From Bacillota bacterium (GTDB lineage Bacteria; Bacillota; SHA-98; UBA4971): a DNA stretch of 64,000 bases. Position numbers and translations under genes: made by a program. Shown one piece after another: positions 4,622 to 64,000 of this stretch. Positions within the stretch are counted from its first letter, which is position 1. Every line of letters starts with the position of its first letter. The stretch lies in the NCBI GenBank assembly GCA_030024085.1, contig JASEJE010000016.1, forward strand, positions 1 to 64,000. The letters are read 5' to 3'. The notes under the pieces are model-generated. The model did no database searches, was not told where the DNA came from, and worked only from the letters and a program-made list of their open reading frames with translations.

Positions 4622-4921
4622 TCCGCGGTTTCAGGCTCACGATCCCTGATAACCGGACCGGCGCGGCGGGAGGTGACGTCGCAGCCTGGCAAGGCAGGTT
4701 CGGGCCGCCGCTTCCTTGGTGTGGGCACGTCAGCCTGCTCTGCAGGCGATGCCACGGTTCGGTCGCCTGGTAACGCCCTTTGCCTTCTCCTCTGCCTGAA
4801 CTCGTCCCACCTGCCGTTTATGAGAGAGACGCTCCGATTCGTCACTTCCTGTCGGCCGCCTGATACTGCTCTGTCATACATATATAAATCCCATGGTGGT
4901 GCCGTCACTTGAGCTGAGGAT
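4622..4921. other. Spacer after spoIID without a recognised gene
   Basis: About 300 bases upstream of the palindrome array. An AT-rich patch at 4874-4892 (catacatatataaatc) stands out from the GC-rich surroundings and could be promoter DNA, but no correctly spaced -35/-10 pair for a known sigma factor could be fixed. The short open frames here show no family resemblance. Confidence 0.4.
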
Positions 4922-5236
4922 TGACGCACGTCACGGGTTCTTCGCGAATCGTTCCTTGTACCATTCCCCGAAGCTGACGAATGACGTACATCACGGGTTC
5001 GCCCTCAACCGTCCCCTGCGTCACCCTTGAGGGCCATCCGGTGATGTACATCACGGATCCCGGCCCCACGCGTTCCCTACGTCACATGTGCGAGAGGAAA
5101 GATGACGTACGTCACCCGTCAGGCTCCTCCCGTTCCGTAGCTCACGCATCCGCCACCAATCGCTGATGTACGTCACCGTTGCCGCCTGACCTGTTCCCTA
5201 CGTCACGCATGCAGGCGAAAGGATGATGTGCATCAC
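4922..5236. repeat. Six-unit array of TGAYGTRCRTCAC palindromes with 60-61-bp period
   Basis: The 12-bp palindrome TGACGTACGTCA, or a close variant, followed by C, starts at 4922, 4982, 5042, 5103, 5164 and 5224, giving spacings of 60, 60, 61, 61 and 60. Between successive copies lies a second conserved block like GTTCCCTACGTCAC (best at about 5070, 5131 and 5192), which repeats one half-site. Other positions vary. The array ends about 90 bases before the M23 peptidase start. Regular spacing near six helical turns would put all sites on similar DNA faces, as expected for a cooperative protein-binding array. It is not CRISPR-like: the conserved blocks are short and degenerate and no cas gene is near. 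Confidence 0.85.
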
Positions 5237-25673: not shown

Positions 25674-25937
25674 ATGCAGGGCACAGATGGCTGCCACCAT
25701 TTCAGGGGCTGCCGGGGTCACGCTCCGTGCGTGGCTGGCGCGCCTGCGGCGCACCTCGTCGGAATCGGCGCCCGACCGGCCAGGTCTTCAATGCCCCGTC
25801 GCGTAATGGCTGGTCTCGAACGGACCGCCGGATCGACGCGGATTTGCGAATCTGTGCCCTGACTGCGTCGGGGTGATGCGGTGGCAGCGGAAGGGCTCCG
25901 GATTGCTCCAGATCTCGGGGCGGGAGAATCGGGCGAG

Positions 25938-27942: not shown

Positions 27943-28126
27943 GCAAACGCTGCCCGAACACCGGTGACCGCGCCGCGGATACCGGCCGCCCAGGCGGCGA
28001 CAGCGGGGCCGCAACTGCCGTGCCGAGATGGCGGTTGCGGCCTCTCTGGTACATCGATCGCTCAGGTCCTCAGGTCCGCTTCCCGGCACCATCATGGCGG
28101 AAGCAGCCGCCACGCCATGCCACGTC
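27943..28126. other. Spacer after the YjbH-like gene
   Basis: GC-rich sequence leading into a repeat element; the left end of that element is not recognisable here and may be eroded into this stretch. No gene or terminator is visible. Confidence 0.35.
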
Positions 28127-28245
28127 GCGGCGCGCCTCGTTCGAATTTGGCGCACGGGCCAGCCAAATTCTCGACGCCCCGCCCTAGCAAGCACCGGCAA
28201 CCCTAACACCCCCAAGAAAAGTGGCGAAAACTTATGGCGCCATAC
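28127..28245 (+). repeat. Interspersed MITE-like repeat, partial copy A
   Basis: Matches the right-hand 60 percent of the copy at 33094-33294: CTCGTTCGAATTTGGCGC, the CCCTAGCAAGCACCGGCAAC block, then AAAAGTGGCGAAAAC and the end palindrome TATGGCGCCATA. The left terminal repeat is missing or diverged. Same orientation as copy B. Confidence 0.85.
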
Positions 28246-28413
28246 TTAGTCTCGCAAGGCGCGTCGCAAGCGCGCCGTCCCCAGGGTCCAGCACCGCGAA
28301 CCCCTGAGAGTTGGTAGCGGCCTTCTCGACCTACGTCTGGGAAGGAGGTCCCAGTTTCAGCGCAGGAGGGATTTGGCCAAATAAAGAGAAAATAGCATGA
28401 GGGGGCGTAGCTC

Positions 28414-30828: not shown

Positions 30829-33090
30829 ATGATGATGGATCACGCATCCGGGTGCGCTGGCCCCGACCCTGTCCCTGTCCGCGGCCCCGGCCCTGGGCCC
30901 GGCCGTGGTTTCGGTCTTGCTGTCGGCTGCTCCCTGGTCCTCCTCAGCCTTGTGGCTCCAGCCCCTGCGTTTGCGTCTGGTGCCCCGGCCTCGCCTGAGC
31001 CGGCTCGCATTTCAGGCGACAGGGTGACCGTGGACCTGGAGGCAAGCCGCGCGCGGGCTGAGGGCAACGTGGTGCTCACATACAAGGATCTGCGGATCAT
31101 CTGCGACGTGCTGGAGGTGAACACCGCCTCGGGGGAGCTCGTGGCCACCGGGCACGTGGAGTTTGACGACGGCGACGACGTGGTCACCGGGGACGTCCTC
31201 CGGTACGACCTCAAGGCGCGGCGCGGGAGCATCACGCACGGCAGGGCGGCCGTGACCGGCGAGCGCATGGATGGCAAGATGTACGTGTCCGGAGAGGAGT
31301 TCGCCGCGGAGCCGGGCAAGATCACAGTCAAAGACGGCAGTTTCACCACGTGCGATCTGGAGGAGCCTCATTACCACGTGGAAGCCGGTGAGATAGAGGT
31401 ATACATAGACGACAGGATGGTCCTGCGAAAGGTATCCTACTGGGAGGGCAAGATACGCCTCTTCTACTGGCCGTACCTGGTCCTGCCCATCCGGGAGGAG
31501 AACAGGTTCGACCTCCCGAAGATAGGCTACGGACCGACCGAGGGATGGTTCATAAAGACCACCTACAACTACTACAGTAACCCGTCCAACCGGGGGTCGC
31601 TTTACCTCGACTACTTCAGCAGGCTCGGCGTGGGGGCGGGCGCGAAGCACCTCTACAAGGTGGGCGCTCTGGGAAGCGGGTTCGTATACGTATACGGCCT
31701 TGCCAACAAGCTCGCCGGGCGCACCGACGGCAAGCTCGAGATCTCCCATGATATCCCGCTGGGCGAGAAAACCGAGGCGCACCTTGGCCTCCGTTACAGC
31801 GATGCGGCCTCGTCCACGGGCGTCCCCACGAGAGAGCTTGGCGGAAGCGTGAAGCTGGACCACCGCGACGACAATGGCGCCATGAGCCTCGCCGCGGAGC
31901 GGACAGCGAAGCGCGGGGCGTCAGCGAGCGACGAGACGAGGGTGCAGGCAAGCGTAAGCCGGAGGTTCCAGAGCGGGCTGTCTCTCTCGGGGAACGCCGC
32001 CTACCTTGACCGCCGGGTGCCCGGCGGCGACGAGGGGTCCGGCGAGAGGTTCCTCAACTACAAGCTCGACGTCGCGAAGGACACGTCAATAGGCTCGCTG
32101 CGGGCCATCTGGGAGCAGTACGTGAAGCCCCGCGAGCGCGAGGAGAAGGAAGAGGAAGGCGAGGTCGACCCTTTGCCATATGAGGCCATCGGTCGCGCTC
32201 CGGAGATTACCTTTGAGAGCAGGCCCTTCGGGCTTGGTGCCTTGCCGGTGAGGCTGCAGGTGGCTGCGGGATACGGGCGATATGTAGAGAGGCCGTCGGG
32301 ATGGACCCTCCCAGGCATGGTGAGGGCCGCCAGGACAGAGCTGGCGCTCCTCGCTCCATCGCAGTCCTACCCGCTCTGGAAGGGCGCGAGGGCCACGATC
32401 TCGGGCGGGATCACGTTTGACAGCTACACCACCGGCGACCGGCGTTACGTGGCCGATGCCGGCCTGGGTCTGGAGACGCGCCTCTTCAAGGATGCCCTGA
32501 GGCTCAAGGGCGGCTATGAATACTGCGGGGTGTTCGGCCAGACGCCTTTCGCCTTCGATGAGGAGGTCCGTAAGGGCCTTCTCAGCGGGAGCCTCACCAT
32601 TTCACGCGGCCCCATCACGGCCTCGCTGGAAGGTGGGTACGACCTCTATACGCAGGTGTACAAGGATCTCGCGGCCTGGGTAAAGGTGTCGCCGGGCAAG
32701 GCGTGGGCAGTGGAAGCGAGGGCGAGCTACGACCCGAACGAGGCGGCCATGAAGGAGGCCACGGGGAAGATCGAACTCTCTGCGTCGGAGCGCTGCACGG
32801 TGAAGCTGGGAGCGAGGTACAGCTTCCCGAAACAGGCACTGGACCGGGTCGAGAGCGATGTCGCGCTGAGCATGGGAGATGCGTGGAAACTGCAGTGGAC
32901 TCTAGTGTACGGTGGGCCGGCCAAGGGCGTGCTCCGGGGTGATGTGGGCGTGACGCGCGACCTGCACTGCCGCGAGCTCAAGCTATCTTACAGCTACACC
33001 AACAACCAGGTGTGGCTGGAGTACAGGATCAAGGCGTTCCCGTACGAGGGCATCCGGTTCGGCCTCGGAGACCAGGGCGTGCTGTTCTAA
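30829..33090 (+). CDS. lptD: LptD/OstA-type outer-membrane LPS assembly protein
   Basis: 753 residues. A signal region (about 25-50, ending PAFAS) precedes an OstA/LptA-like jellyroll (about 60-210: RARAEGNVVLTYKDLRIICDVLEV; ATGHVEFDDGDDVVTGDVLRYDL; GSFTTCDLEEPHYHVEA), where LPS slides toward the outer membrane. WPYLVLPIREENRFDLPKIGYGPTEGWFI marks the LptD transition to a large C-terminal barrel ending LGDQGVLF. The frame is open to a TTG at 30472, right after the permease stop, but that extra 119-residue part is Arg/Ala/Val-rich with RVTDRVAGRVAG-like repeats, so the ATG at 30829 (GGGTGG eight bases upstream) is preferred; this choice is uncertain. With lptF/G it gives the two membrane ends of the LPS export bridge. 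Confidence 0.88.
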   Translation: MMMDHASGCAGPDPVPVRGPGPGPGRGFGLAVGCSLVLLSLVAPAPAFASGAPASPEPARISGDRVTVDLEASRARAEGNVVLTYKDLRIICDVLEVNTASGELVATGHVEFDDGDDVVTGDVLRYDLKARRGSITHGRAAVTGERMDGKMYVSGEEFAAEPGKITVKDGSFTTCDLEEPHYHVEAGEIEVYIDDRMVLRKVSYWEGKIRLFYWPYLVLPIREENRFDLPKIGYGPTEGWFIKTTYNYYSNPSNRGSLYLDYFSRLGVGAGAKHLYKVGALGSGFVYVYGLANKLAGRTDGKLEISHDIPLGEKTEAHLGLRYSDAASSTGVPTRELGGSVKLDHRDDNGAMSLAAERTAKRGASASDETRVQASVSRRFQSGLSLSGNAAYLDRRVPGGDEGSGERFLNYKLDVAKDTSIGSLRAIWEQYVKPREREEKEEEGEVDPLPYEAIGRAPEITFESRPFGLGALPVRLQVAAGYGRYVERPSGWTLPGMVRAARTELALLAPSQSYPLWKGARATISGGITFDSYTTGDRRYVADAGLGLETRLFKDALRLKGGYEYCGVFGQTPFAFDEEVRKGLLSGSLTISRGPITASLEGGYDLYTQVYKDLAAWVKVSPGKAWAVEARASYDPNEAAMKEATGKIELSASERCTVKLGARYSFPKQALDRVESDVALSMGDAWKLQWTLVYGGPAKGVLRGDVGVTRDLHCRELKLSYSYTNNQVWLEYRIKAFPYEGIRFGLGDQGVLF

Positions 33091-33093
33091 GTA

Positions 33094-33294
33094 GATCGCC
33101 AGAAATCCGCGCTGCTTTTCAGCGTGCAGGGGATCTCCAGGGTTGCCGCTGTTGCACTCCGGGGACGGCGCGCTCGCGGCGCGCCTCGTTCGAATTTGGC
33201 GCGCGGGCCAGCCAAATTCCAGGCGCCCCGCCCTAGCAAGCACCGGCAACCCTGACACCCTCAAGAAAAGTGGCGAAAACCTATGGCGCCATAC
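33094..33294 (+). repeat. Interspersed MITE-like repeat, full copy B
   Basis: About 200 bp directly after the lptD stop. Left end GATCGCCAGAAATCCGCG...CTTTTCAGCG; right end AGAAAAGTGGCGAAAACC followed by the 12-bp palindrome TATGGCGCCATA. The ends are imperfect inverted repeats of each other (shared CACTTTTC and CAGGGTTGCCGG blocks in reverse complement). The copy at 55285-55484 is the same element inverted; 28127-28245 and 37019-37165 are partial or degraded copies. No coding potential. Confidence 0.9.
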
Positions 33295-33348
33295 TTGGAG
33301 CGCGAGGGCGCGTCCTTGACGTCCGGGCGCCCCGGCGCGACGCCGGGC

Positions 33349-34644: not shown

Positions 34645-35203
34645 CCCTGCCACCTCCCAAATCGTCTCCGGTCGTGAGCCCTGGCGGGGGTCCTTCATGT
34701 GCCGGGCGTCTACAAGTTCGACGGCGCGTGCGCCTATCCTTCTGTGTCTGTCCTGCTTTGCTGAGTTCTGCTCTGACCTGCCCTGATCAGCTACGGTATG
34801 GTATGCTTTGCTGGGCGCATGTAGTCATTGTGCCGCCCGAGGGACGTCGCCGCTCCGCAGTCAGCGCATGTCGGGCCACCTATGTCAGGCCACCTTTGCA
34901 GGCGACGCCACCATGTGGTCGCGCGGGAGGCCGGTCTTGCCGCGACCAGGTCGCCGGGCCTGGTTGGGCTTCCGGAAGCCAACCCCAGGCTGATCCTGGA
35001 TCGCTACGCACCACCCCCACGGTCCCCACGACCCACCGGTCCGTGCACCTGCAGACTATTCCATGCACCCGCAGCAGGATTCTTTCAATGAGAGTTGAAT
35101 AGATCCATGGCGAATTAAACCAGGCTAAACAGCCTGACTGGAAACTGGAGCTTGAGAGATCCTCCCGGAGCGCCAGCAGGCTGGCATCCCGGGAGGACGG
35201 CAG
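34645..35203. other. 559-base divergent intergenic region
   Basis: Separates the minus-strand CcdA fusion from the catabolic cluster, so it should hold promoters for both directions. The sequence is less GC-biased around 34730-34810 (ctacggtatggtatgctttgc) and 35080-35130 (ttcaatgagagttgaatag...aattaaaccaggctaaac). No -35/-10 pair with correct spacing could be fixed. Open frames here are Arg/Pro/Ala-rich and not gene-like. Confidence 0.4.
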
Positions 35204-36478: not shown

Positions 36479-37017
36479 CGTTGCTCGGCAGGAAGATACG
36501 GGAAAAGCGCCGCGAACGAGGAAAGAGCCTAAACGAACTTGCGGCGCTCACGGGGCTTACCGCAAGCTTCTTGAGCCAGGTCGAGAGGGACGTGGCCGAG
36601 CCGTCCATAACGTCTCTGCGCAAGATCGCGGAAGCTCTCGATGTGCCCATATTCTATTTCCTCCTTAACTCGGACGGTTACAGCCCCGTGGTGAGGAAGG
36701 ACAGCCGAAAGACCCTGAAGTTTCCCAGGTCCCACCTGGCCTTCGAGCTCCTGTCGCCCGACCTCAGCAGGCAGATGGAGGTCATGATGGCAACGCTCGA
36801 GCCCGGCACGTCCACATGTGAGGAGCCGCTTGCGCACCCCGGAGAGGAATGCACTGTGGTGCTGCAGGGCGCGATGGACATAGAGATTGGCGATGAGTGC
36901 TACCACCTGGAGGAGGGTGACAGCATCTACTACTATTGCGCCATCCCACACAAGATCACGAGCGTCGGCGACAAGGGCCTCGTCTTCATCTCCGCCATCA
37001 CGCCGCCGGCGTTCTAA
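36475..37017 (+). CDS. XRE-family regulator with C-terminal cupin sensor domain
   Basis: 180 residues. Helix-turn-helix of the XRE type at about 5-60 (GRKIREKRRERGKSLNELAALTGLTASFLSQVERDVAEPS), then a cupin domain at about 100-178 with PLAHPGEECTVVLQGAMDIEIGDECYHLEEGDSIYY, the two cupin motifs. HTH-cupin regulators typically sense a small metabolite of the pathway they control. Here the ATG overlaps the stop of the PLP-enzyme gene and the next genes belong to the purine-type cluster, so local control of that cluster is the simplest reading. The ligand is not known; candidate operators were not identified. Confidence 0.9.
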   Translation: MTLLGRKIREKRRERGKSLNELAALTGLTASFLSQVERDVAEPSITSLRKIAEALDVPIFYFLLNSDGYSPVVRKDSRKTLKFPRSHLAFELLSPDLSRQMEVMMATLEPGTSTCEEPLAHPGEECTVVLQGAMDIEIGDECYHLEEGDSIYYYCAIPHKITSVGDKGLVFISAITPPAF

Positions 37018-37018
37018 G

Positions 37019-37165
37019 TGCGGGTTCGGAAATCACCGCCGCCTTTCCAGGGGCTCGCGGTGTTGCACTCCGGGGACGGCGCGCTCGCGTCGTGCCTCGT
37101 CAGATTCGGCATCGAGACGTGCCAGATCGAAAGGGCCCCGTCGTGCAGGCACCGGCGACCCGGAA
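37019..37165 (+). repeat. Interspersed MITE-like repeat, degraded copy D
   Basis: Starts right after the regulator stop. A 29-base stretch (37061-37089, beginning TGTTGCACTCCGGGG) is identical to copy B at 33150-33178; flanking parts align only with mismatches and small gaps (for example GGCACCGGCGACCC near 37150). The terminal palindrome is lost, so this is an old copy. Confidence 0.7.
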
Positions 37166-37370
37166 GCTTCTCTCGGACCGACATGGATTTGTGGACTGGC
37201 ACATAGCGGGTAGCCGGCCCGATCCAGACGGGAACGAAGGGCCCAGGGGCAAGTGAACGGAGGGTGAAGGGGCGGGGAAACAAGGGGCGGAGGGGCAAGG
37301 AGCGAAGCCCAGGCAGGCTCGGGGGAACGAGGAGGTCGGGGACCACGCATCCGGGAGAGGAGAGGGCAAG
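37166..37370. other. Purine-rich leader before carbamate kinase
   Basis: From about 37250 the + strand is strikingly purine-rich (ggagggtgaaggggcggggaaac, ggggcggaggggcaaggagcg), ending in a strong ribosome-binding stretch (GGGAGAGGAGAGGG, 37353-37366). No promoter could be fixed. Confidence 0.4.
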
Positions 37371-41075: not shown

Positions 41076-41104
41076 GCGGCGGCAGCGGCTCACATGCGCG
41101 CTAA
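41072..41104 (+). CDS. Possible 10-codon overlapping mini-ORF
   Basis: ATG at 41072 overlaps the mocA stop (ATGA) and runs ten codons to TAA at 41102. It may only keep ribosomes on the message before xdhC; no conserved peptide can be claimed. Confidence 0.2.
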   Translation: MSGGSGSHAR

Positions 41105-41168
41105 AAAGTATCGCGAACTCGTGGCGGTCTACTCAGAGCCTGCATTGGACGAAGGGAAGGGACTTGCA

Positions 41169-43492: not shown

Positions 43493-43520
43493 GCTGCCAG
43501 CGTTGCACCCCCGGACGGCG
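43493..43520 (+). repeat. Possible short relic of the MITE-like repeat (copy E)
   Basis: GCTGCC-A-GCGTTGCACCCCCGGACGGCG resembles the internal part of copy B (about 33143-33171) with several mismatches. It supports a non-coding origin of the stretch just before the peptidase-like gene, but the match is short. Confidence 0.35.
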
Positions 43521-53955: not shown

Positions 53956-55284
53956 ATGCTCATTGTCGGGCGAGGCTGCGTCATCACCCTTGACCCGGAG
54001 GGGAGGGTCCTGGATGACGGCGCCGTCGCCATTGCAGACGGCGTCATCCGCGAGGTGGGGGCCACAGACGAGGTGAGGGGGCGCCATCCGGACGCCGAGT
54101 TCATCGATGCCGAGGGCCGCGTCATCATGCCCGGCATGATAAACACCCATATGCATCTCTACAGCACGTTCGCGCGGGGCATGGCGCTCAAGGACGCGCC
54201 TCCGCGGACGTTCATGCAGATCCTGGAGCGCCTGTGGTGGAGGCTGGACAAAGCTCTGGGATCCGAGGACGTTTACGTGAGCGCGCTCGTGCCGCTCATC
54301 GACTGCATCCGCTGCGGGACCACGACCCTCCTTGACCATCACGCAAGTCCCATGGCAGTGCCAGGTAGCCTCGACGAGATTGCGCGCGCGGTGGGCGAGG
54401 CCGGCATCAGGGCGTGCCTGGCGTACGAGGTGTCGGACAGGGACGGCGGGGAGGTGGCGGGCCAGGGCATTCGCGAGAACGTGAGGTTCATCGAGAGGTG
54501 CCGGCGCGAGGGGGGCGAGCACCTGGCCGCGTCGTTCGGGCTTCACGCGCAGGTCACCCTCTCCGACGCGACGCTCGCGAAGTGCCGCGAGGCTGCGGAG
54601 GGGCTCGACGTGGGGTTCCACGTCCACGTGGCCGAGGGGCCGGAGGATGTGGAGGACGCGCTGGCAAAGTCCGGCAAGCGCGTGGTGGAGCGCCTCGACG
54701 CCTTCGGGATCCTGGGGCCGAGGACCATCGCTGCTCACTGCGTCCACGTGAACGAGGCCGAGATGGACATCCTGCTCGAGCGCGACGTCAACGTGGTGCA
54801 CAATCCCGAGTCCAACATGGGAAACGCCGTGGGCGTGGCGCCCGTCCTGCGGATGCTGGGGAAGGGTGTGAAGGTCGGCCTCGGAACCGACGGCTATACT
54901 TCCGACATGTTCGAGTCGGTGAAGGTCGCCAACATGCTCCACAAGCTTGCCGAGAGGAACCCCAGCGCGGCGTGGGCCGAGGTGCCCGTGATGATATTCG
55001 AGAACAACAGGGAGATCGCCCGCCGCATCTTCGGGCGCAAGCTGGGCGTGCTCGAGCCGGGGGCCGCGGGGGACGTCATAGTCGTGGACTACCGCCCGCC
55101 GACACCCCTCGGCCCGTCCAACTATTACAGCCATGTGCTGTTTGGTATGAGCGGGGGTCTCGTGGACACGACGGTGGTGGCGGGGCGCGTGCTCATGCGC
55201 GGGCGCAGGCTCACGGGGCTCGACGAGGAGAGGATCACCGCCCGCTCGCGCGAGCTTGCGAGGCGGGTCTGGGAGAGGTTCTAG
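53956..55284 (+). CDS. ssnA: SsnA-type amidohydrolase/aminohydrolase
   Basis: 442 residues of the metal-dependent amidohydrolase superfamily, close to SsnA and the TrzN/guanine-deaminase group. Metal ligands: His65 and His67 (MINTHMHLYSTF), then FHVHVAEG, AAHCVHVN and GLGTDGYTSDMFE with the conserved Asp. FASFGLHAQVTLSDATL-type and SNYYSHVLFGMSGGLVDTTVVAGRVLM blocks are typical of SsnA. SsnA belongs to the urate/purine degradation locus of gut anaerobes and probably deaminates or opens a purine-ring intermediate. ATG at 53956 (or the GTG just before it) follows GGAAGGAGG. It closes the run of dehydrogenase genes, and a repeat element begins at the base after its stop codon. Confidence 0.9.
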   Translation: MLIVGRGCVITLDPEGRVLDDGAVAIADGVIREVGATDEVRGRHPDAEFIDAEGRVIMPGMINTHMHLYSTFARGMALKDAPPRTFMQILERLWWRLDKALGSEDVYVSALVPLIDCIRCGTTTLLDHHASPMAVPGSLDEIARAVGEAGIRACLAYEVSDRDGGEVAGQGIRENVRFIERCRREGGEHLAASFGLHAQVTLSDATLAKCREAAEGLDVGFHVHVAEGPEDVEDALAKSGKRVVERLDAFGILGPRTIAAHCVHVNEAEMDILLERDVNVVHNPESNMGNAVGVAPVLRMLGKGVKVGLGTDGYTSDMFESVKVANMLHKLAERNPSAAWAEVPVMIFENNREIARRIFGRKLGVLEPGAAGDVIVVDYRPPTPLGPSNYYSHVLFGMSGGLVDTTVVAGRVLMRGRRLTGLDEERITARSRELARRVWERF

Positions 55285-55484
55285 GTATGGCGCCATAAGT
55301 TTGCGCCACTTTTCGTGACGGTGTTGGGGTTGCCGGTGCTTGCTAGGGCGGGGCGCCTGGAATCTGGCTAGCCTCAAGCGCCAGATTCGAACGCATCTCA
55401 GCGCACGCGCCGTCGCCGGAGTGCAACACCGGCAACCCTGGAGAGGACTTGCGCGCTGAAAAGTGGCGCGAATTCGTGGCGATC
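55285..55484 (-). repeat. Interspersed MITE-like repeat, full copy C (inverted)
   Basis: Reverse complement of copy B with about four in five positions alike by eye. It starts GTATGGCGCCATAAGTTTGC and ends TTCGTGGCGATC. Its two ends, read inward, share GCGCCACTTTTC and GGGTTGCCGGTG, so terminal inverted repeats are clear. CTTAG occurs just outside the right end and near the end of copy A, but a target duplication is not established. It separates ssnA from the PLP enzyme. Confidence 0.9.
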
Positions 55485-55516
55485 GGCTTAGTGCCGCAAG
55501 GAAAGGTGAGTGACTC

Positions 55517-56992: not shown

Positions 56993-57341
56993 ATCCTTCA
57001 TTCACAGTCGAGGCTCTGTATGACGTCGCCTGCCGCAGCGACTCGCACGACTGCCTTCACTTCTTCCAGGGATCATCACCTGCCCCTTCGGGCTCATGGT
57101 CGTGGTGGTCTCCTGCGTGGGTTCCGCACTGGCCACCTCCTTGGTAATGCGTAATACCACCTGCTTCGATTGTGCAGCCTTCTTGCGGCCTGTGCAACGG
57201 CCCCAGGGCCGCCGTGTGAGGTCTGCGCGCTGGAGCGACGCGGATGGGGGCCTTCCCGCAGTGGGAATGGCCTGGGATACCCTTATCGCAAAGCCCACCG
57301 CCAGTTCCAGCTGGCACGGGCTGGATAGGAACCCATTTCGA
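56993..57341. other. Decayed-looking spacer before the gatD relic
   Basis: About 350 bases with no intact gene. On the minus strand a frame around 57060-57200 reads ..TTTTMSPKGQVMIP.., faintly like an AbrB/SpoVT DNA-binding opening, but it is not followed by the rest of that domain in any single frame. Composition begins to shift toward lower GC here. A murT gene, the usual partner in front of gatD, is absent. Confidence 0.35.
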
Positions 57342-58148
57342 CTGAAGAACTCTTGTGTATGTCATCTCTACCCAGATCTCATCAACACCTATGGCGACCG
57401 TGGAAAGGTAATAGCGCTCGAGAGGAGGGCCTCCTGGCGTGGATTAGGGGTCGAGGTAGTCTCCGTGTTCCTCGGAGCAAGCCCGGATTTCGGTGCGTTC
57501 GATCTTGTCTTCTTCGGTGGGAGCCAGGACAAGGAGCAGCGGCCGGTATCCCGGGATCCTGTGAGCTCAAAGACGAACTCACTGCTGGATGCCGCCGAAA
57601 GCGGTGTTGTCATCCTTGCCGTGTGCGGCGGCTATCAACTGCTGGGTGAGTATTGCCAGACGCTGGCCGGCGAGGGACTGCCGGGTGCAGGGATCCTCGA
57701 TATCAGAACAGATGCAGGGAATCAACGTTTTGCTGGGAATGTCGTGATAGAGTCACGATTGCCTTTGGGCTAGGTCGTCACTGTGGTGGGATTTGAGAAT
57801 CACTCGGGAAGGACCTGCCTTGGCACCGGGGTAGCCCCACTCGGGAGGGTGGTTGTCGGATACGGCAATAACGGGAGCGATAGGTCAGAGGGCTGCGTCT
57901 GTAGAAATGTCATAGGCACTTACCTCCATGGTCCGCTTCTGCCCAAGAACCCGCATCTAGCCGACTATCTCATCCGGAAGGCTTTGGGCAGGAGCCTAGG
58001 AGAACCAGATCTGACCCCACTCGATGACGGGCTAGAGGTTGAGGCGCATCGCGCTGCAGTTGCAGGGGCCAGGAGAGCAGCACCTAGTCAAGTAGTTCGC
58101 AGGCGAGCTGCCGTCAGGATACTTAGTTCTTACCGCTCTTGCGCATGA
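57342..58148 (+). pseudogene. gatD: gatD-like glutamine amidotransferase gene with in-frame TAG
   Basis: The translation matches GatD (CobB/CobQ-like amidotransferase subunit of the MurT-GatD lipid II amidating enzyme): CHLYPDLINTYGDRGKVIALERRA at the start, LVFFGGSQDKEQ, then ILAVCGGYQLLGEY with the nucleophile cysteine. The frame stops at TAG 57771-57773 right after IESRLPLG and resumes in the same frame with VVGFENHSGRTCLG, which holds the catalytic histidine, GTYLHGPLLPKNPHLADYLI and the C-terminal DDGLEVEAH. A truncated product would lack the histidine. No ATG/GTG/TTG lies at the expected start; a CTG at 57342 would fit. No murT is next to it. Most likely a nonsense-mutated pseudogene; amber readthrough or a sequencing error are alternatives. 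Confidence 0.82.
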
Positions 58149-58321
58149 ACCCGTCATGGCGGAGCGACGTGCACCTGTCTGCAGATTGGCCAGCTGGGCC
58201 AGAGCCTCGGGAGTCGCGGTCATTTCCCCAGTTCCGTAGCAGCCACGTGAGGGCAGCGATGCCATCGCACGAAACAGAATACACAAATTCGACCCCTCCT
58301 AGCGACGGCCAAAGAAGGAGA

Positions 58322-58348
58322 TTGAACCCGGACAGCGAATAACATACT
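58322..58348 (+). promoter_or_regulatory. Possible promoter of the lacI-type gene
   Basis: TTGAAC (58322-58327) and CATACT (58343-58348) with a 15-base spacer; the spacing is short for sigma-A. The palindromic operator begins seven bases after the -10, where repressor binding would block initiation. Confidence 0.35.
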
Positions 58349-58354
58349 TAGCAA

Positions 58355-58368
58355 CCGAAGCGCTTCGG
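58355..58368. promoter_or_regulatory. LacI-family operator O1
   Basis: CCGAAGCGCTTCGG, a perfect 14-bp palindrome with the central CG typical of LacI/GalR operators. It lies 96 bases before the regulator start. Confidence 0.75.
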
Positions 58369-58431
58369 ATGTGCACGCGCCGTGGGGTGCGCAAACATCA
58401 GCACGCCTGCATCGTGGCGATTCAGCGCGCC

Positions 58432-58445
58432 GGAAGCGCTTCGAA
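58432..58445. promoter_or_regulatory. LacI-family operator O2
   Basis: GGAAGCGCTTCGAA, sharing the GAAGCGCTTC core with O1 and centred 77 bp from it, just before the regulator's ribosome-binding site. Two such sites suggest autoregulation by looping. A weaker AAGCGCT core occurs at about 59535-59541, upstream of the ABC transporter genes. Confidence 0.65.
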
Positions 58446-58463
58446 GCACAAGAGGAGACGCCG

Positions 58464-59492
58464 ATGGATTCACCAACGCTCGACGACATAGCCAAGGAAA
58501 GTGGCTGCTCACGAACCACCGTTTCGAGGGCTCTAAACGGGTACAGCGACGTTAGCGAATCTACGCGCCGCAAGGTTCTAGCAGTTGCACATCGTCTAAA
58601 TTACCGTCCCAATGCCCACGCGCGTGGCTTGGCCTCCAATCGGTCCCATAGTATTGCTGCTGTCATGAGGCAGAGTGCTTTCGCCGAGACGCCCATTTTC
58701 ATCGAAGTGTTGGAAAGCGTTCGCCACACCCTGGGCGGTCTTGGCTATCATCTGCTCCACGCTGCACCAACCCCGGAGTTCGTGGGCATCGAAGATGCCC
58801 TCAGCATGTATCAGATGCACAAAATCGATGGGGTGATTCTTCTTGAGGTAGAGGTAAACGATTCCGTGCTTCCTCGCTTCCTGGATCTAGGTATTCCGGT
58901 CGTCTTGTTCGGGCAAGCAGAAGGGCGGCGTTCCGTCCCGTCTGTAGACGTAAATGGAGCGGCAGCGATGGCCCGAGTGACTCGTTATCTTCTTGACCTC
59001 GGTCACAGACGGATTGGCTATCTCAGTGGACCCCTGAAATACGTGTATGCACAGCATCGCTTTTCAGGATTCGAGCAGGTCATGACGGAAGCCGTGGGAG
59101 GGCCCATCGCGGAGTGGGTCGTCGAGGTAGAGGGGTCTCTTCAGAGCGGATACGACGGAGCGGCACGCGTGCTATCGATGCACCGACGTCCTACGGCAGT
59201 CATCTGCAACAGCGATTACGTTGCCCTTGGGGCCATGAAGGCCATCCGTGATTGGCGCCTGCGGGTTCCTGAGGACATCTCCGTCGTCGGATTCGACGAT
59301 GTTCCAGTGGCTCGCTTCCTCAGTCCGCCGCTTACCACAGTTCGCCAGCCAACCGGTGAGCTGGGCCGACTCCTGGCGGAGCAAATGATAAGTGCTATTG
59401 AAAGGAGTACTAGCCCCGCTGGCAACATCGTTCTCGAATGCGACCTCGTCCTTAGGGACTCGTGCGCCCGCATTCAGCATGCTGAGGAATAG
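58464..59492 (+). CDS. LacI/GalR-family transcriptional regulator
   Basis: 342 residues. N-terminal LacI helix-turn-helix and hinge (TLDDIAKESGCSRTTVSRALNGYSDVSESTRRKVLAVAHRLNYRPN, about 5-50), then the periplasmic-binding-protein-like sugar domain (DGVILLEVEVNDSVLPRFLDLGIPVVLFGQ; LGHRRIGYLSGP; AVICNSDYVALGAMKAI; DISVVGFDDVP; LTTVRQP). It should repress the following ABC transporter genes until a sugar ligand binds. ATG at 58464 has AGAGGAG upstream; the frame is open earlier, but that part contains the O1/O2 operators. Codons end in A or T more often than in the upstream clusters. The effector is unknown. Confidence 0.95.
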   Translation: MDSPTLDDIAKESGCSRTTVSRALNGYSDVSESTRRKVLAVAHRLNYRPNAHARGLASNRSHSIAAVMRQSAFAETPIFIEVLESVRHTLGGLGYHLLHAAPTPEFVGIEDALSMYQMHKIDGVILLEVEVNDSVLPRFLDLGIPVVLFGQAEGRRSVPSVDVNGAAAMARVTRYLLDLGHRRIGYLSGPLKYVYAQHRFSGFEQVMTEAVGGPIAEWVVEVEGSLQSGYDGAARVLSMHRRPTAVICNSDYVALGAMKAIRDWRLRVPEDISVVGFDDVPVARFLSPPLTTVRQPTGELGRLLAEQMISAIERSTSPAGNIVLECDLVLRDSCARIQHAEE

Positions 59493-59639
59493 CGCTGTTG
59501 TGCCGGCGGTGGTATCCTCAACACGGCTGGGTGCAAGCGCTGTAAGGAAGTCCGGGCTGTAGGGGGTGGTGCTTGAGAGAGTCCAAGAGGTCAAGGCGAT
59601 GCCACCAGTGTCCAAATTCGCGAACGGGAGGGACGTATC

Positions 59640-60947
59640 GTGTCTCGTAACATCTGCGCTGGCCGTTTACGTGCGTTCGTTATCCTAGTGGTGATGGTTA
59701 TGATGATCGGCGCGGTACCGCAGACCCTGGCTACATCCAGGATTCCCCTAACCCTTACCTTCTGGGGCGAGGGCAAGGACCTACCCGTGTACGAGAATCT
59801 CGTGGCGCCTTTCGTGAAAGCCCACCCGGACATCGATCTGAAGGTCGTGAACATCCCGTCGTTAGGCGGGACCCAAAGCTATGTTACAAAGGTCTTGACC
59901 ATGATCGCGGGTGGGACCCCTCCCGACGTCCTCCAAATCGACGCGCCAGACTTTGTCGCCATGGCCGGGAGGAATGCTTTCTATAACCTAGACACCTTCC
60001 TGACAAAGGAACCAGAAGTGAAAGCGGACATCTACCCGCAGTTACTCAGCGCTTTTCAAGCGGATGGCCATCAGTATGCTCTTCCGAAGGACTTTACCAC
60101 GGTCGTTGTCTACTACAACGAGGACATGTTCCGAGACGCTGGTTTGAAGATGCCCAACGAGTATGCACGGGAAGGGCAGTGGACATGGGACACTCTGCTG
60201 AAGGTCGCAAAAGCTCTTACCAAAGACGTCGATGGCGACGGTAAAGTAGACCAGTTCGGCGTGGCTCCGGAAACCTGGGGCGGCTTTTGGAACTTCTGGG
60301 TCTGGCAAGCCGGCGGAAGGGAGTTCAATGATGCGATCACGGAGTCGACCATCAACTCCCCACAGGCCAGAGAAGGGCTTCAGTTTCTGTCCGACCTGTG
60401 GAACAAGTACCATGTCGCTCCGACGCCGGCACAGAAGACCTCCATGCAGGCCTATCAGATGTTCCAGAACGGGAAAGTCGGCATGGTGATGTACGGACGG
60501 TGGATGGTGGCAACATATCGCCAGGTCAAGAGCTTCCGCTGGGACATTGCTCCGCTACCTGCCGGTAAGGAGAAAGCGACCCCCATCTTCAGTAGCGGCT
60601 GGGCTATCGCTCGTAATGCGAAACACCCCGACAAGGCTTGGGAACTCCTGCGATACTTGTGTGGAGCCGAGGGTCAAAGGGCGATAGCTGAGTTGGGCGT
60701 CGGTGTTCCGGTGTCGAAGACTATTGCTGAGTCGGACATGTTCATCCAGCCTGGCATGCCCCCGAAGCATGCATCGGTTTTCATGGAGAGCCTCGAATTC
60801 GGTCGGTTCCTCCCATTCTTCGAGCAGTACGGGAAAGCCGACAGCATAACGAACAAGGAGCTTGACAGGCTTTGGATAGGCCAGAGCAGCGCGGAAGAAG
60901 TGACAAATGCGATTAAGAACCAGGTAGACGCTATATTGAAGCGGTAA
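59640..60947 (+). CDS. Extracellular sugar-binding protein of an ABC transporter
   Basis: 435 residues of the family-1 (MalE/UgpB-like) binding proteins. A Sec signal peptide (about 8-32, ending LAT) lacks a lipobox cysteine, so the protein is probably free in a periplasm, which fits a diderm cell. LTFWGEGKDLPVYENLVAPFVKAHPDIDLKVV, GGTPPDVLQIDAPDF, VVYYNEDMFRDAGL, the Ca-loop-like DVDGDGKVDQFG and AWELLRYLCG are typical. GTG start with CGGGAGGGA upstream. It is followed by an alpha/alpha-barrel protein and two permeases, so they form one uptake operon; the ATPase is not in the window, as is common for this class. Oligosaccharide or glycoside import is likely. Confidence 0.94.
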   Translation: MSRNICAGRLRAFVILVVMVMMIGAVPQTLATSRIPLTLTFWGEGKDLPVYENLVAPFVKAHPDIDLKVVNIPSLGGTQSYVTKVLTMIAGGTPPDVLQIDAPDFVAMAGRNAFYNLDTFLTKEPEVKADIYPQLLSAFQADGHQYALPKDFTTVVVYYNEDMFRDAGLKMPNEYAREGQWTWDTLLKVAKALTKDVDGDGKVDQFGVAPETWGGFWNFWVWQAGGREFNDAITESTINSPQAREGLQFLSDLWNKYHVAPTPAQKTSMQAYQMFQNGKVGMVMYGRWMVATYRQVKSFRWDIAPLPAGKEKATPIFSSGWAIARNAKHPDKAWELLRYLCGAEGQRAIAELGVGVPVSKTIAESDMFIQPGMPPKHASVFMESLEFGRFLPFFEQYGKADSITNKELDRLWIGQSSAEEVTNAIKNQVDAILKR

Positions 60948-60967
60948 GGTTCGGCAGTACCCAACTA

Positions 60968-60980
60968 GTAGGCGGCCTAC
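60968..60980. other. Short inverted repeat in the operon spacer
   Basis: GTAGGC-G-GCCTAC just after the binding-protein stop. Too short for a confident terminator; it may reduce read-through so that the binding protein is made in excess of the permeases. Confidence 0.35.
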
Positions 60981-61057
60981 ATCGCCTATCTCCCGTGGCA
61001 TGCGATGTGGGCTGCCTACCAAGCAAGGCGAAGCCGCAGGAAAGGCGGGAAGCTGTC

Positions 61058-62266
61058 ATGTACGGCATTGTATCGCCCAGGGACTGGCAATTGGAGCCTG
61101 CGACCAGACAAATGAGCTCAGTCATCGAAGCATGGACTGGAATCACATATGACGAGTTGGAGCGACGTTGGCGTGGCGCGACAGACTGGTTGTTGAGGCA
61201 GTTCAATGAGGAAACCGGAGCGTTCCACGGCTTCTACCGCGCAATTGAGAGAACCTTTGAACCACCGCAGACGGTGAACCTTATCGCGCCCATGCAGCTC
61301 CTGGCAGCTCACGACAGGTATGGTGACGTTCACCTTCTGGAGACGGCCCGCCGAAGTGCTGAGTGGTTTTATTACCACTTTGTCGTTAGCCACCCAATGA
61401 GCGTTGTTCAAGGTGGTGTGCGTGACACCTCTGCCCCTGAGTTGTGGATCAAGTACACGGCGGAGTTTTGCATGCTGAATCAGGCTCTCTACACTCGGAC
61501 CGGGGACGGGGTATATCTGTATCGCGCCCGGCAAGCGGCTGGCTTCCTCGTTCAGTCGCAAAGGCACGGCTTCTCGCCCAAGTTCAACACCAAGGATGAG
61601 GAATGGGAGCAGAAAGGTTGGATGGCTTTCGGCCGAGTGGTTGAGGCCTTTCTTGGCCTTTATGAACTCACTAACGACGCGGTGTGGCGAGAGCGGGCGA
61701 TCGCCTGGGGTGAGCATGCGCTGACATTGCAGGCTAAGGACGGCTGCTTCTACCTAATCGATATGGAATACTACAATACGGACTTGGCAGCCGATCCTCT
61801 CAGGGCACTGGTCTTCTTGTTCGAGGAAACCGGTGATGCCCGGTACCTGCAAGCTGCGCGGCATTTCGGCGACTGGCATCTGGCGCACCAACGGCCGGAC
61901 GGTGCTTGGCCACTTACCTACGACTCCGATGGAAACGTCGTGTGTGAGATTGTTGGCCCGGGCGATATCCCGAACATAGGGATTGCGCTCTTGCGTCTGT
62001 ATAGGGCAACCAAGGAGACTAGGTACATACGAGCAGCCATCAATACAATGCGCTACTCGATTTCCGTCCAGGTGGACCCGGGCACTCACTCCCCTTATGC
62101 TGACGACCCCAACGTGGCATGGGGCTTCTGGTCGTGGCAGCCCCACTATGATTACACCCTTTCGGGCGATCAATCCACGCTGCACGTGCGGGGAATGATG
62201 TTTCTCACCGACTACTTGTCCAGTCTGGGCAAGCCACCGGCGGATGCAGTGGCCATTGAACCATAG
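61058..62266 (+). CDS. (alpha/alpha)6-barrel protein, probable glycosidase or sugar epimerase
   Basis: 402 residues without a signal peptide. Repeated helix-pair patterns with aromatic residues typical of six-hairpin glycosidases appear throughout: WLLRQFNEETGAFHGF, AEWFYYHFVVSHP, YLYRARQAAGFLVQSQ, GWMAFGRVVEAFLGLYELT, DPLRALVFLFEETGDARYLQAARHFGDW, and a C-terminal WGFWSWQPHYDYTLSG. Such barrels occur in unsaturated-uronyl hydrolases (GH88/GH105), N-acylglucosamine 2-epimerases and glucuronyl C5-epimerases; no catalytic motif here decides among them. Encoded inside a sugar ABC transporter operon, it probably acts on the imported glycan in the cytoplasm. ATG at 61058 has GGAAAGGCGGGA upstream and is preferred over an ATG at 60995. 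Confidence 0.72.
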   Translation: MYGIVSPRDWQLEPATRQMSSVIEAWTGITYDELERRWRGATDWLLRQFNEETGAFHGFYRAIERTFEPPQTVNLIAPMQLLAAHDRYGDVHLLETARRSAEWFYYHFVVSHPMSVVQGGVRDTSAPELWIKYTAEFCMLNQALYTRTGDGVYLYRARQAAGFLVQSQRHGFSPKFNTKDEEWEQKGWMAFGRVVEAFLGLYELTNDAVWRERAIAWGEHALTLQAKDGCFYLIDMEYYNTDLAADPLRALVFLFEETGDARYLQAARHFGDWHLAHQRPDGAWPLTYDSDGNVVCEIVGPGDIPNIGIALLRLYRATKETRYIRAAINTMRYSISVQVDPGTHSPYADDPNVAWGFWSWQPHYDYTLSGDQSTLHVRGMMFLTDYLSSLGKPPADAVAIEP

Positions 62267-62310
62267 CTCGGTGCAGGGCTAGACGACATAAGGAAAGGAG
62301 AAACGACTGC

Positions 62311-63198
62311 GTGGCCAGGCGCGTATCAGCCCTCCAGCGTGCGCAGACAAGAAGAGCGTACCTCTTCCTGTTACCGAATATCGCTGGCTTCTTTGTATTC
62401 ATACTGGGGCCGGCAGTGGCGTCACTCTTGCTGGCCTTCACAAACTGGGACTTGTTGACTCCCATTCAGTTCGTTGGCCTCGCAAACTTCAAGGAGATGG
62501 CGGGCGACCGCGACTTCCGGCAAGCCCTGTGGAACACCGTATACTATACGGCCGCAAGTGTGCCCTTGAGCATCGCGTTTTCGCTTATGCTTGCCCTGGT
62601 GCTTAACAAGGTGGTCCGGGGGATCTCCTTTCTGCGCGCAGCGTATTTCATACCAGTCATCTCGTCTACGGTAGCCGTTGCTATTGTCTGGATGTGGATC
62701 TACGAGCCAGAGGGTGGGATTCTCAACCGCCTCCTAAGTCTGATCGGAATTGAAGGGCCCCAATGGCTGACAGACCCATCCTGGGCAATGCCTGCGGTCA
62801 TTCTGATGAGCGTGTGGAAGAACCTCGGGTACAACATGGTCATTTTCCTTGCTGGTCTGCAAGGCATACCGTCCCACCTATACGAGGCGGCCCGAATTGA
62901 CGGCGCCAACCAGTGGAGTCAGTTTTGGTACATTACTGTTCCTCTACTCTCCAACACCACCTTTTTCGTGGTCATCATGTCGGTCATAAGCTCCTTCCAG
63001 GTGTTTGATCAGGCATACGTGATGACCAAAGGGGGACCGGCCGGAGCGACAATGACCGTCGTGTACTACCTATACCAGAATGGCTTCCAGTTCTTCCGGA
63101 TGGGCTATGCAGCCGCCATCGCCTGGTTCTTGTTCGTTATCGTTTTCGCCATATCTGTCATAGAGTGGCGTGCTGGAGGCCGGTACGTTCATTACTAA
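62311..63198 (+). CDS. Sugar ABC transporter permease (MalF/UgpA type)
   Basis: 295 residues, six membrane helices. AYLFLLPNIAGFFVFILGPAVASLLLAF at the N-terminus, VGLANFKEM, WNTVYYTAASVPLSIAFSLMLALVLNK, FIPVISSTVAVAIVWMWIYEP and the EAA loop LYEAARIDGANQWSQFWYITVPLL (about 190-213), which docks the ATPase. GTG start after AAGGAAAGGAG. It pairs with the next gene as the heterodimeric channel for the substrate bound by the 59640-60947 protein. Confidence 0.95.
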   Translation: MARRVSALQRAQTRRAYLFLLPNIAGFFVFILGPAVASLLLAFTNWDLLTPIQFVGLANFKEMAGDRDFRQALWNTVYYTAASVPLSIAFSLMLALVLNKVVRGISFLRAAYFIPVISSTVAVAIVWMWIYEPEGGILNRLLSLIGIEGPQWLTDPSWAMPAVILMSVWKNLGYNMVIFLAGLQGIPSHLYEAARIDGANQWSQFWYITVPLLSNTTFFVVIMSVISSFQVFDQAYVMTKGGPAGATMTVVYYLYQNGFQFFRMGYAAAIAWFLFVIVFAISVIEWRAGGRYVHY

Positions 63199-63266
63199 CC
63201 GGTTGGGCTCGTTGGTGACACCTTTCCAATCGGTCACGTTCAGTGGTGGTTGAGGAGGACTTGGCT

Positions 63267-64000
63267 ATGGACACCCCAAACAGGGCGGAACGCATAGTAG
63301 CCCACAGACCGCGGAGGCCGAGACGGGGCAAAGTGCCGTTCAATGGCGTGGCTCTCACCCGCGTCCTTTACTACGTGGTTCTGTTTGGCGGAGCTACCGT
63401 AATGATGGTACCGTTTCTCTGGATGATATCGGTTTCCCTCAAGGAACCGGGACAGGTCTTTGTTTATCCGCCACAGTGGATCCCCGACCCCATCGTGTGG
63501 GCCAACTACGGGACCGTGTGGACGACGGTGCCGTTCGCCATGTTCCTTCTGAACACCACGAAGATAGCAATCCTGGTCACCTTGGGCCAGTTCCTTACCT
63601 GCTCCCTGGGTGCCTACGCATTTGCAAGGCTTGAATTTCCTGGGCGTGATCACTTGTTTCTTGCTTACCTCGGCACCATGATGATCCCGTACCACGTAAC
63701 CCTTGTTCCGGTGTTCATTCTTATGCGATATTTGGGTTGGGTCGACTCTCACTTGTCTTTGATTGTCCCAGCTTGTTTCAGTGCCTTCGGCACATTCCTG
63801 CTTCGCCAGTTTTTCTTGACGATCCCGAGGGAATTGGAAGACGCTGCCCGTATCGACGGATGCTCCGAGTTCGGTATCTACAGCCGGATTGTCCTTCCTC
63901 TGGCGAAACCGGCTCTTGCCACTCTCGGAGTCTTCACGCTCCTGTGGAGCTGGAACGACTTCATCGGCCCCCTCGTTTTCATCAACTCTACGGAGAAAAA
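63267..64000 (+). CDS. Sugar ABC transporter permease (MalG/UgpE type), cut by the window end
   Basis: ATG at 63267 with GAGGAGGA at 63252-63259; the frame is open to the last base, so the 3' end lies outside (about 244 codons seen). MDTPNRAERIVAHRPRR is a basic cytoplasmic start, followed by LYYVVLFGGATVMMVPFLWMISVSLK, the family opening helix and SLK turn; then LNTTKIAILVTLGQFLTCSLGAYAFARL, YLGTMMIPYHVTLVPVFILMR, and the EAA loop ELEDAARIDGCSEFGIYSRIVLPL. WSWNDFIGPLVFI follows near the edge. Partner of the preceding permease. Confidence 0.94.
   Translation, partial: MDTPNRAERIVAHRPRRPRRGKVPFNGVALTRVLYYVVLFGGATVMMVPFLWMISVSLKEPGQVFVYPPQWIPDPIVWANYGTVWTTVPFAMFLLNTTKIAILVTLGQFLTCSLGAYAFARLEFPGRDHLFLAYLGTMMIPYHVTLVPVFILMRYLGWVDSHLSLIVPACFSAFGTFLLRQFFLTIPRELEDAARIDGCSEFGIYSRIVLPLAKPALATLGVFTLLWSWNDFIGPLVFINSTEK

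Follow-up and report, generated by a model that had tools for sequence, protein, structure and literature searches.

Among described mobile repeats, the RUP element of Streptococcus pneumoniae (107 bp), which is thought to be moved by IS630-Spn1 (PMC2229807), is close in character to the family analysed here. Both are non-coding, mostly intergenic repeats with nested copies, a TA target and IS630-like ends, and RUP is present in about a hundred copies (PMC2229807). The present family differs in being twice as long, in its different ends, in its conserved folded core, in its strong preference for CTAG and in that no intact partner was found in its genome. According to PMC2170065, which cites Tenzen and Ohtsubo (1991), IS630 prefers the TA within CTAG. 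The same paper describes duplication of TA on insertion for IS630 of Shigella sonnei and for ISY100 (Tc1/mariner/IS630 family), as found here, although both are autonomous and encode a transposase, whereas the present elements measure ~200 bp and encode nothing. The Correia elements of Neisseria are likewise structured, intergenic MITEs of 100-200 bp with more than 100 copies (PMC2229807, PMC10969869), but their host is unrelated, and RNase III processing and IHF sites have been reported for them. Finally, MITEPsy1 of Pseudomonas syringae is a short MITE that inserts at CTAG or YTAA; whereas the present family duplicates TA alone, the target duplication of MITEPsy1 is 4 nt long, and its ascription to IS5 carries a question mark (PMC3189936).

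The repeats of the window (the whole 64-kb stretch of DNA that was analysed) are read here, with a probability of about 0.9, as non-autonomous cut-and-paste MITEs that a DDE transposase of the IS630/Tc1-mariner type mobilises in trans. Fixed ends, duplication of TA, ends that resemble those of an IS630 element and the poor conservation of the occupied sites all support the original prediction of a MITE-like family. The family is new, belongs to the IS630 kind of MITE and comprises several subfamilies; selfish DNA of this kind is well known. A search of the literature, with the terms tried, found no account of such a repeat in digester Bacillota. This reading accounts for an abundant repeat in poorly known uncultured Bacillota and provides its exact ends, its target and the likely type of its partner.

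Copies and anatomy of the element

The copies of the window (Table 1) were sought with nhmmer, filters off, at E<=1e-3. The original prediction had recognised B and C as full copies, C inverted, and A as a partial one, and all three assignments hold. Copy D, which it had called degraded, is a real element but a near full-length member of another subfamily with other ends, and a possible relic proposed at 43493 was not recovered by this search. Copies B and C are 83% identical and contain no conserved reading frame. The right-hand TA of copy B is mutated to TG, and the right end of copy A is intact (TACTTAG). The palindrome TATGGCGCCATA at one end and the shared end sequence GCGCCACTTTTC, both noticed earlier, are present.

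Table 1. Elements and relics of the family in the 64-kb window.
Feature	Positions	Strand	Remarks
Copy B, full-length subfamily 1 MITE	33087-33298	+	span takes in target C, both TA copies and target G
Copy B, conserved core	33138-33254	+	outer stem CAGGGTTGCCGCTG/CACCGGCAACCCTG around two hairpins
Copy C, inverted full-length MITE of subfamily 1	55281-55491	-	
Copy D, near full-length, subfamily 2	37014-37206	+	ends CTAAGTGCGGGTTC...CACATAG; after stop TAA
Copy A, subfamily 1 MITE without its left part (right ~60% present)	28124-28249	+	
Inverted partial core of another copy, adjoining copy A	28255-28311	-	
Left-end relic of a subfamily 1 copy	41089-41136	-	nhmmer E 4.8e-6, and BLAST
Relic, decayed core	25699-25802	+	nhmmer E 3.2e-5, and BLAST

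The genome-wide search confirmed that the copies are spread across the genome and that their ends are fixed. Of this 65-contig draft of 3.11 Mb, 1.67 Mb (54%) was read for locus counts. It holds 200 loci, including 115 full-length copies (81 of subfamily 1 and 34 of subfamily 2), from which ~200-215 full copies are extrapolated for the whole genome; the repeat accounts for roughly 1.4% of the bases read. For the core 16-mer GCAAGCACCGGCAACC, 241 occurrences were counted genome-wide (<=1 mismatch), against a single one for its reversed control, which is far in excess of chance. About 40 copies match at E<1e-60, and the best pairs of copies are 97-99% identical, which indicates recent movement. 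The core is also present in the Bacillota MAGs AS02xzSISU_21 and UBA6811, and joined to other ends it occurs within the same bacterial family as well as in a different family of the class; searches of other members of the phylum did not find it.

The ends are sharp and read C-TA/AGT...ACT/TA-G (slashes mark the element boundary). From the outside inwards, the order is the target C, the duplicated TA, AGT with a subfamily-specific inverted repeat (AGTAGATCGCCA and AGTATGGCGCCA; AGTGTGGGTTCAGAAAT; AGTGAGGGTGCAGAAAT), a subterminal segment, GCCACTTTTC(CAGG), and a core of ~115 bp, in which an outer stem, GGGTTGCCGGTG/CACCGGCAACCC, encloses two hairpins. The hairpin arms vary among subfamilies while their pairing is kept (GAATTTGGC/GCCAAATTC; AAAATCCGGCC/GGCCGGATTTT; TGAAATTTGGC/GCCAAATTTCA). 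Subfamilies 1 and 2 have this core in common and differ in their ends, and the occurrence of hybrids with one end of each implies that the ends are exchangeable. Across bacterial families the folded core is kept while the ends diversify. With their short, non-coding sequence, terminal inverted repeats and many copies, the elements have the general make-up of a prokaryotic MITE.

High copy number, intergenic location and a palindromic core are equally features of REP/BIME-like palindromes, which owe their spread to a tyrosine transposase of the RAYT type. This origin is nevertheless extremely improbable here, as the elements are long, with fixed inverted ends and a duplicated TA, whereas REPs are short and are not known to be flanked by target duplications, and cores lying outside such ends are few and decayed.

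Target site and candidate partner transposase

The flanks of the elements are random up to a sharp boundary, at which a C precedes the TA in 116 of 122 subfamily 1 ends, while CTAG accounts for only 2.3% of NTAN sites. Precise empty sites were identified in four cases in congeners, three of them CTAG and one ATAT, and the filled counterparts read C-TA/.../TA-G or A-TA/.../TA-T. The comparison shows that TA is duplicated on insertion and that the outer C and G belong to the target, as expected of a prokaryotic MITE and, with a duplication of 2 bp, of one of IS630/Tc1-mariner type; no longer duplication was found when looked for. Thus, the target duplications expected under the original prediction exist, and duplication of TA within CTAG is the signature of IS630/Tc1-mariner transposition. 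The flanks of copy D are joined without the element in the congeners G003, G004 and G005. In a nested case, a subfamily 1 copy (L003) lies within a subfamily 2-type element, of which a relative has CGAG at the same place. At the CTAG stop occupied by copy C, G003 carries a different element of ~140 bp (G003:C1:115478-115620, with CTAAGCGAGGGTGCAGAAG... ends); either the two insertions used this target independently, or one element replaced the other.

The earlier statement that no transposase lies near the copies holds, and no IS630 DDE_3 domain was found anywhere in the genome: neither PF13358 nor tblastn with the transposase described below recovered an IS630 transposase. Paired-end searches of the genome's own sequence recovered no autonomous copy, and no intact partner was found in the genus. 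For classification as a MITE, a partner in the same genome is helpful, not required, and a draft can miss a gene. In the class, however, the search for a transposase with matching ends succeeded. An IS630 element at G015:C2:149738-150878, whose left end reads CTA/AGTTAGTGTCCAATTAAATTTGCCACTTTGCCAGG, carries a transposase in two pieces that matches HTH_29/HTH_32 and DDE_3 (Pfam) and NF033545, and a relative of it in G014 has the left end AGTAAGAGTTCTTTTACATTTGCCACTTTACCAGG. The G015 element was located through its own inverted repeats, independently of any likeness to the MITEs. When a weight matrix built solely from the MITE ends of the genus was scored on all TA sites of each locus, the IS630 ends ranked 1 and 2 of 437 in locus L140 and 1 of 225 in L139, and the left ends still came first with the first six bases ignored. 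These ends, which come from other families of the class, are recognisably similar to those of the MITEs, not identical. Additionally, relics of the G015-type transposase occur in the congeners G001 and G004.

An IS5-family element would be another conceivable source. Some subgroups of this family are described as duplicating TA, DDE_Tnp_1 genes occur in the genus, and CTAG is also the target of the IS5-ascribed MITEPsy1 (PMC3189936). Against this, TA alone is duplicated, not the 4-bp CTAG/YTAA as in MITEPsy1, and the MITE ends match an IS630 element, which leaves an IS5 origin very unlikely. It is very probable that the elements rely on an IS630-type transposase that is produced elsewhere. This protein would bind the terminal AGT... 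segment together with the subterminal GCCACTTTNCCAGG segment, excise the element and paste it into another TA, and the partner may have been lost from the genome or be missing from the draft.

Gene ends, orientation and the folded core

The placement of copies B and C directly after stop codons, as first described, and likewise that of copy D, follows from the CTAG target, which contains TAG. The stop TAA (33088-33090) of the gene preceding copy B arises at the left end of the element, and the TAG stop (55282-55284) of an SsnA-like aminohydrolase gene is supplied by copy C. Among the 97 full copies without gene overlap, 31 abut a stop codon, and 51 of the 262 non-genic CTAG sites outside elements are themselves stop codons; the association with stops is thus mostly due to the TAG within the target. 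Insertion at C-TAG leaves C-TAA or C-TAG, so that the stop is regenerated and the gene keeps its end, a simple route by which a transposon may land at genes and yet spare them.

Exploratory orientation tests, based on a simple ORF caller, showed that in tandem gene contexts the copies lie antisense to the genes in a ratio of 71:33 (p 2.5e-4), a bias present among the full copies of each subfamily (32:14 and 15:5), and that antisense copies are nearer the downstream gene (median 88 vs 196 bp, p 0.0014). Where local and regional gene direction are in conflict, the bias follows local transcription (11:3). A replication-strand cause was considered and rejected, since orientation relative to GC skew over all contexts (111:89) displays no clear bias.

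This bias, together with a strong fold of the + strand (z -4.2) and core stems kept across subfamilies despite changed sequence, would suit an element that serves the host at gene ends, either as a conserved structured RNA or in regulation, such as a terminator, an mRNA stabiliser or an RNase III site. The occupied sites, however, are mostly unconserved: the element is absent from 29 of 38 syntenic intervals, where a conserved RNA gene would be expected at orthologous positions, and the empty sites prove insertion. There is no match to an Rfam family, and copy B contains no promoter or terminator of note. Rare mutations (in <=3 of 92 copies) are spread evenly over the element, at 1.5-2.2%, which, together with the empty intervals, argues against a conserved RNA gene; for common variants, the frequency in the arms is about double that in the core. 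We read this as constraint on source copies with near-neutral decay of resident copies. The decay of pairs is symmetric between strands (G-T 210 and 156 vs A-C 254 and 140), as assessed on a fold in which G-T pairs were disallowed; the structures that RNAalifold derived automatically from alignments of the whole family were poor and biased by strand. The core stems show a small deficit of rare mutations (p 0.017), which leaves room for weak constraint in place. Taken as a full account, host use as an RNA element is refuted and deserves very little credence, while for a minority of copies it could still hold. In line with the original prediction, the ends are consistent among copies and the sites are mostly not shared between species.

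Conservation of the core and the antisense bias are nonetheless more than a simple MITE needs, and they count against the main reading. They could also fit a ~115-bp core that works as a folded module, in the form of RNA or cruciform DNA, with exchangeable IS630-type ends, spreading through a class of uncultured Bacillota and acting on transcription in one orientation, with selection leaving copies mostly antisense to operons. Such a mobile regulatory cassette, settling at stop codons without breaking genes, is an unlikely reading. Under the preferred reading, that of MITEs moved in trans, active source copies would retain the folded core for an aid it may give to moving or persistence, not for any host use of resident copies.

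Neighbouring repeats and the wider window

In congeners, the two genes that flank copy B lie on separate contigs or have differing neighbourhoods, and this copy may mark a rearrangement point; more generally, the MITE repeats may mark rearrangements in the genus. Contigs C22, C11, C3, C30, C32 and C33 have a MITE copy at or close to one of their ends, and the copies are probably a cause of breaks in the assembly. Another MITE family, with ends AGTTAGTGCGCA resembling those of the G015 IS630 element, occurs at loci L238-L243 of G013, with core-bearing elements nested inside. In the window itself, an intergenic cluster of imperfect palindromes like TGAYGTACRTCA at 4892-5207 is repeated elsewhere (for instance at C11:238302 and C11:42866), and a third short repeat family at 34884-35046 has relatives in the congeners G002, G003 and G004 and in the genome's own contigs C6 and C11. 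Finally, the G+C content falls to 0.55-0.59, vs 0.65, at 57000-64000, a segment that encodes a LacI-type regulator, a sugar-binding protein and a glycosidase-like gene.
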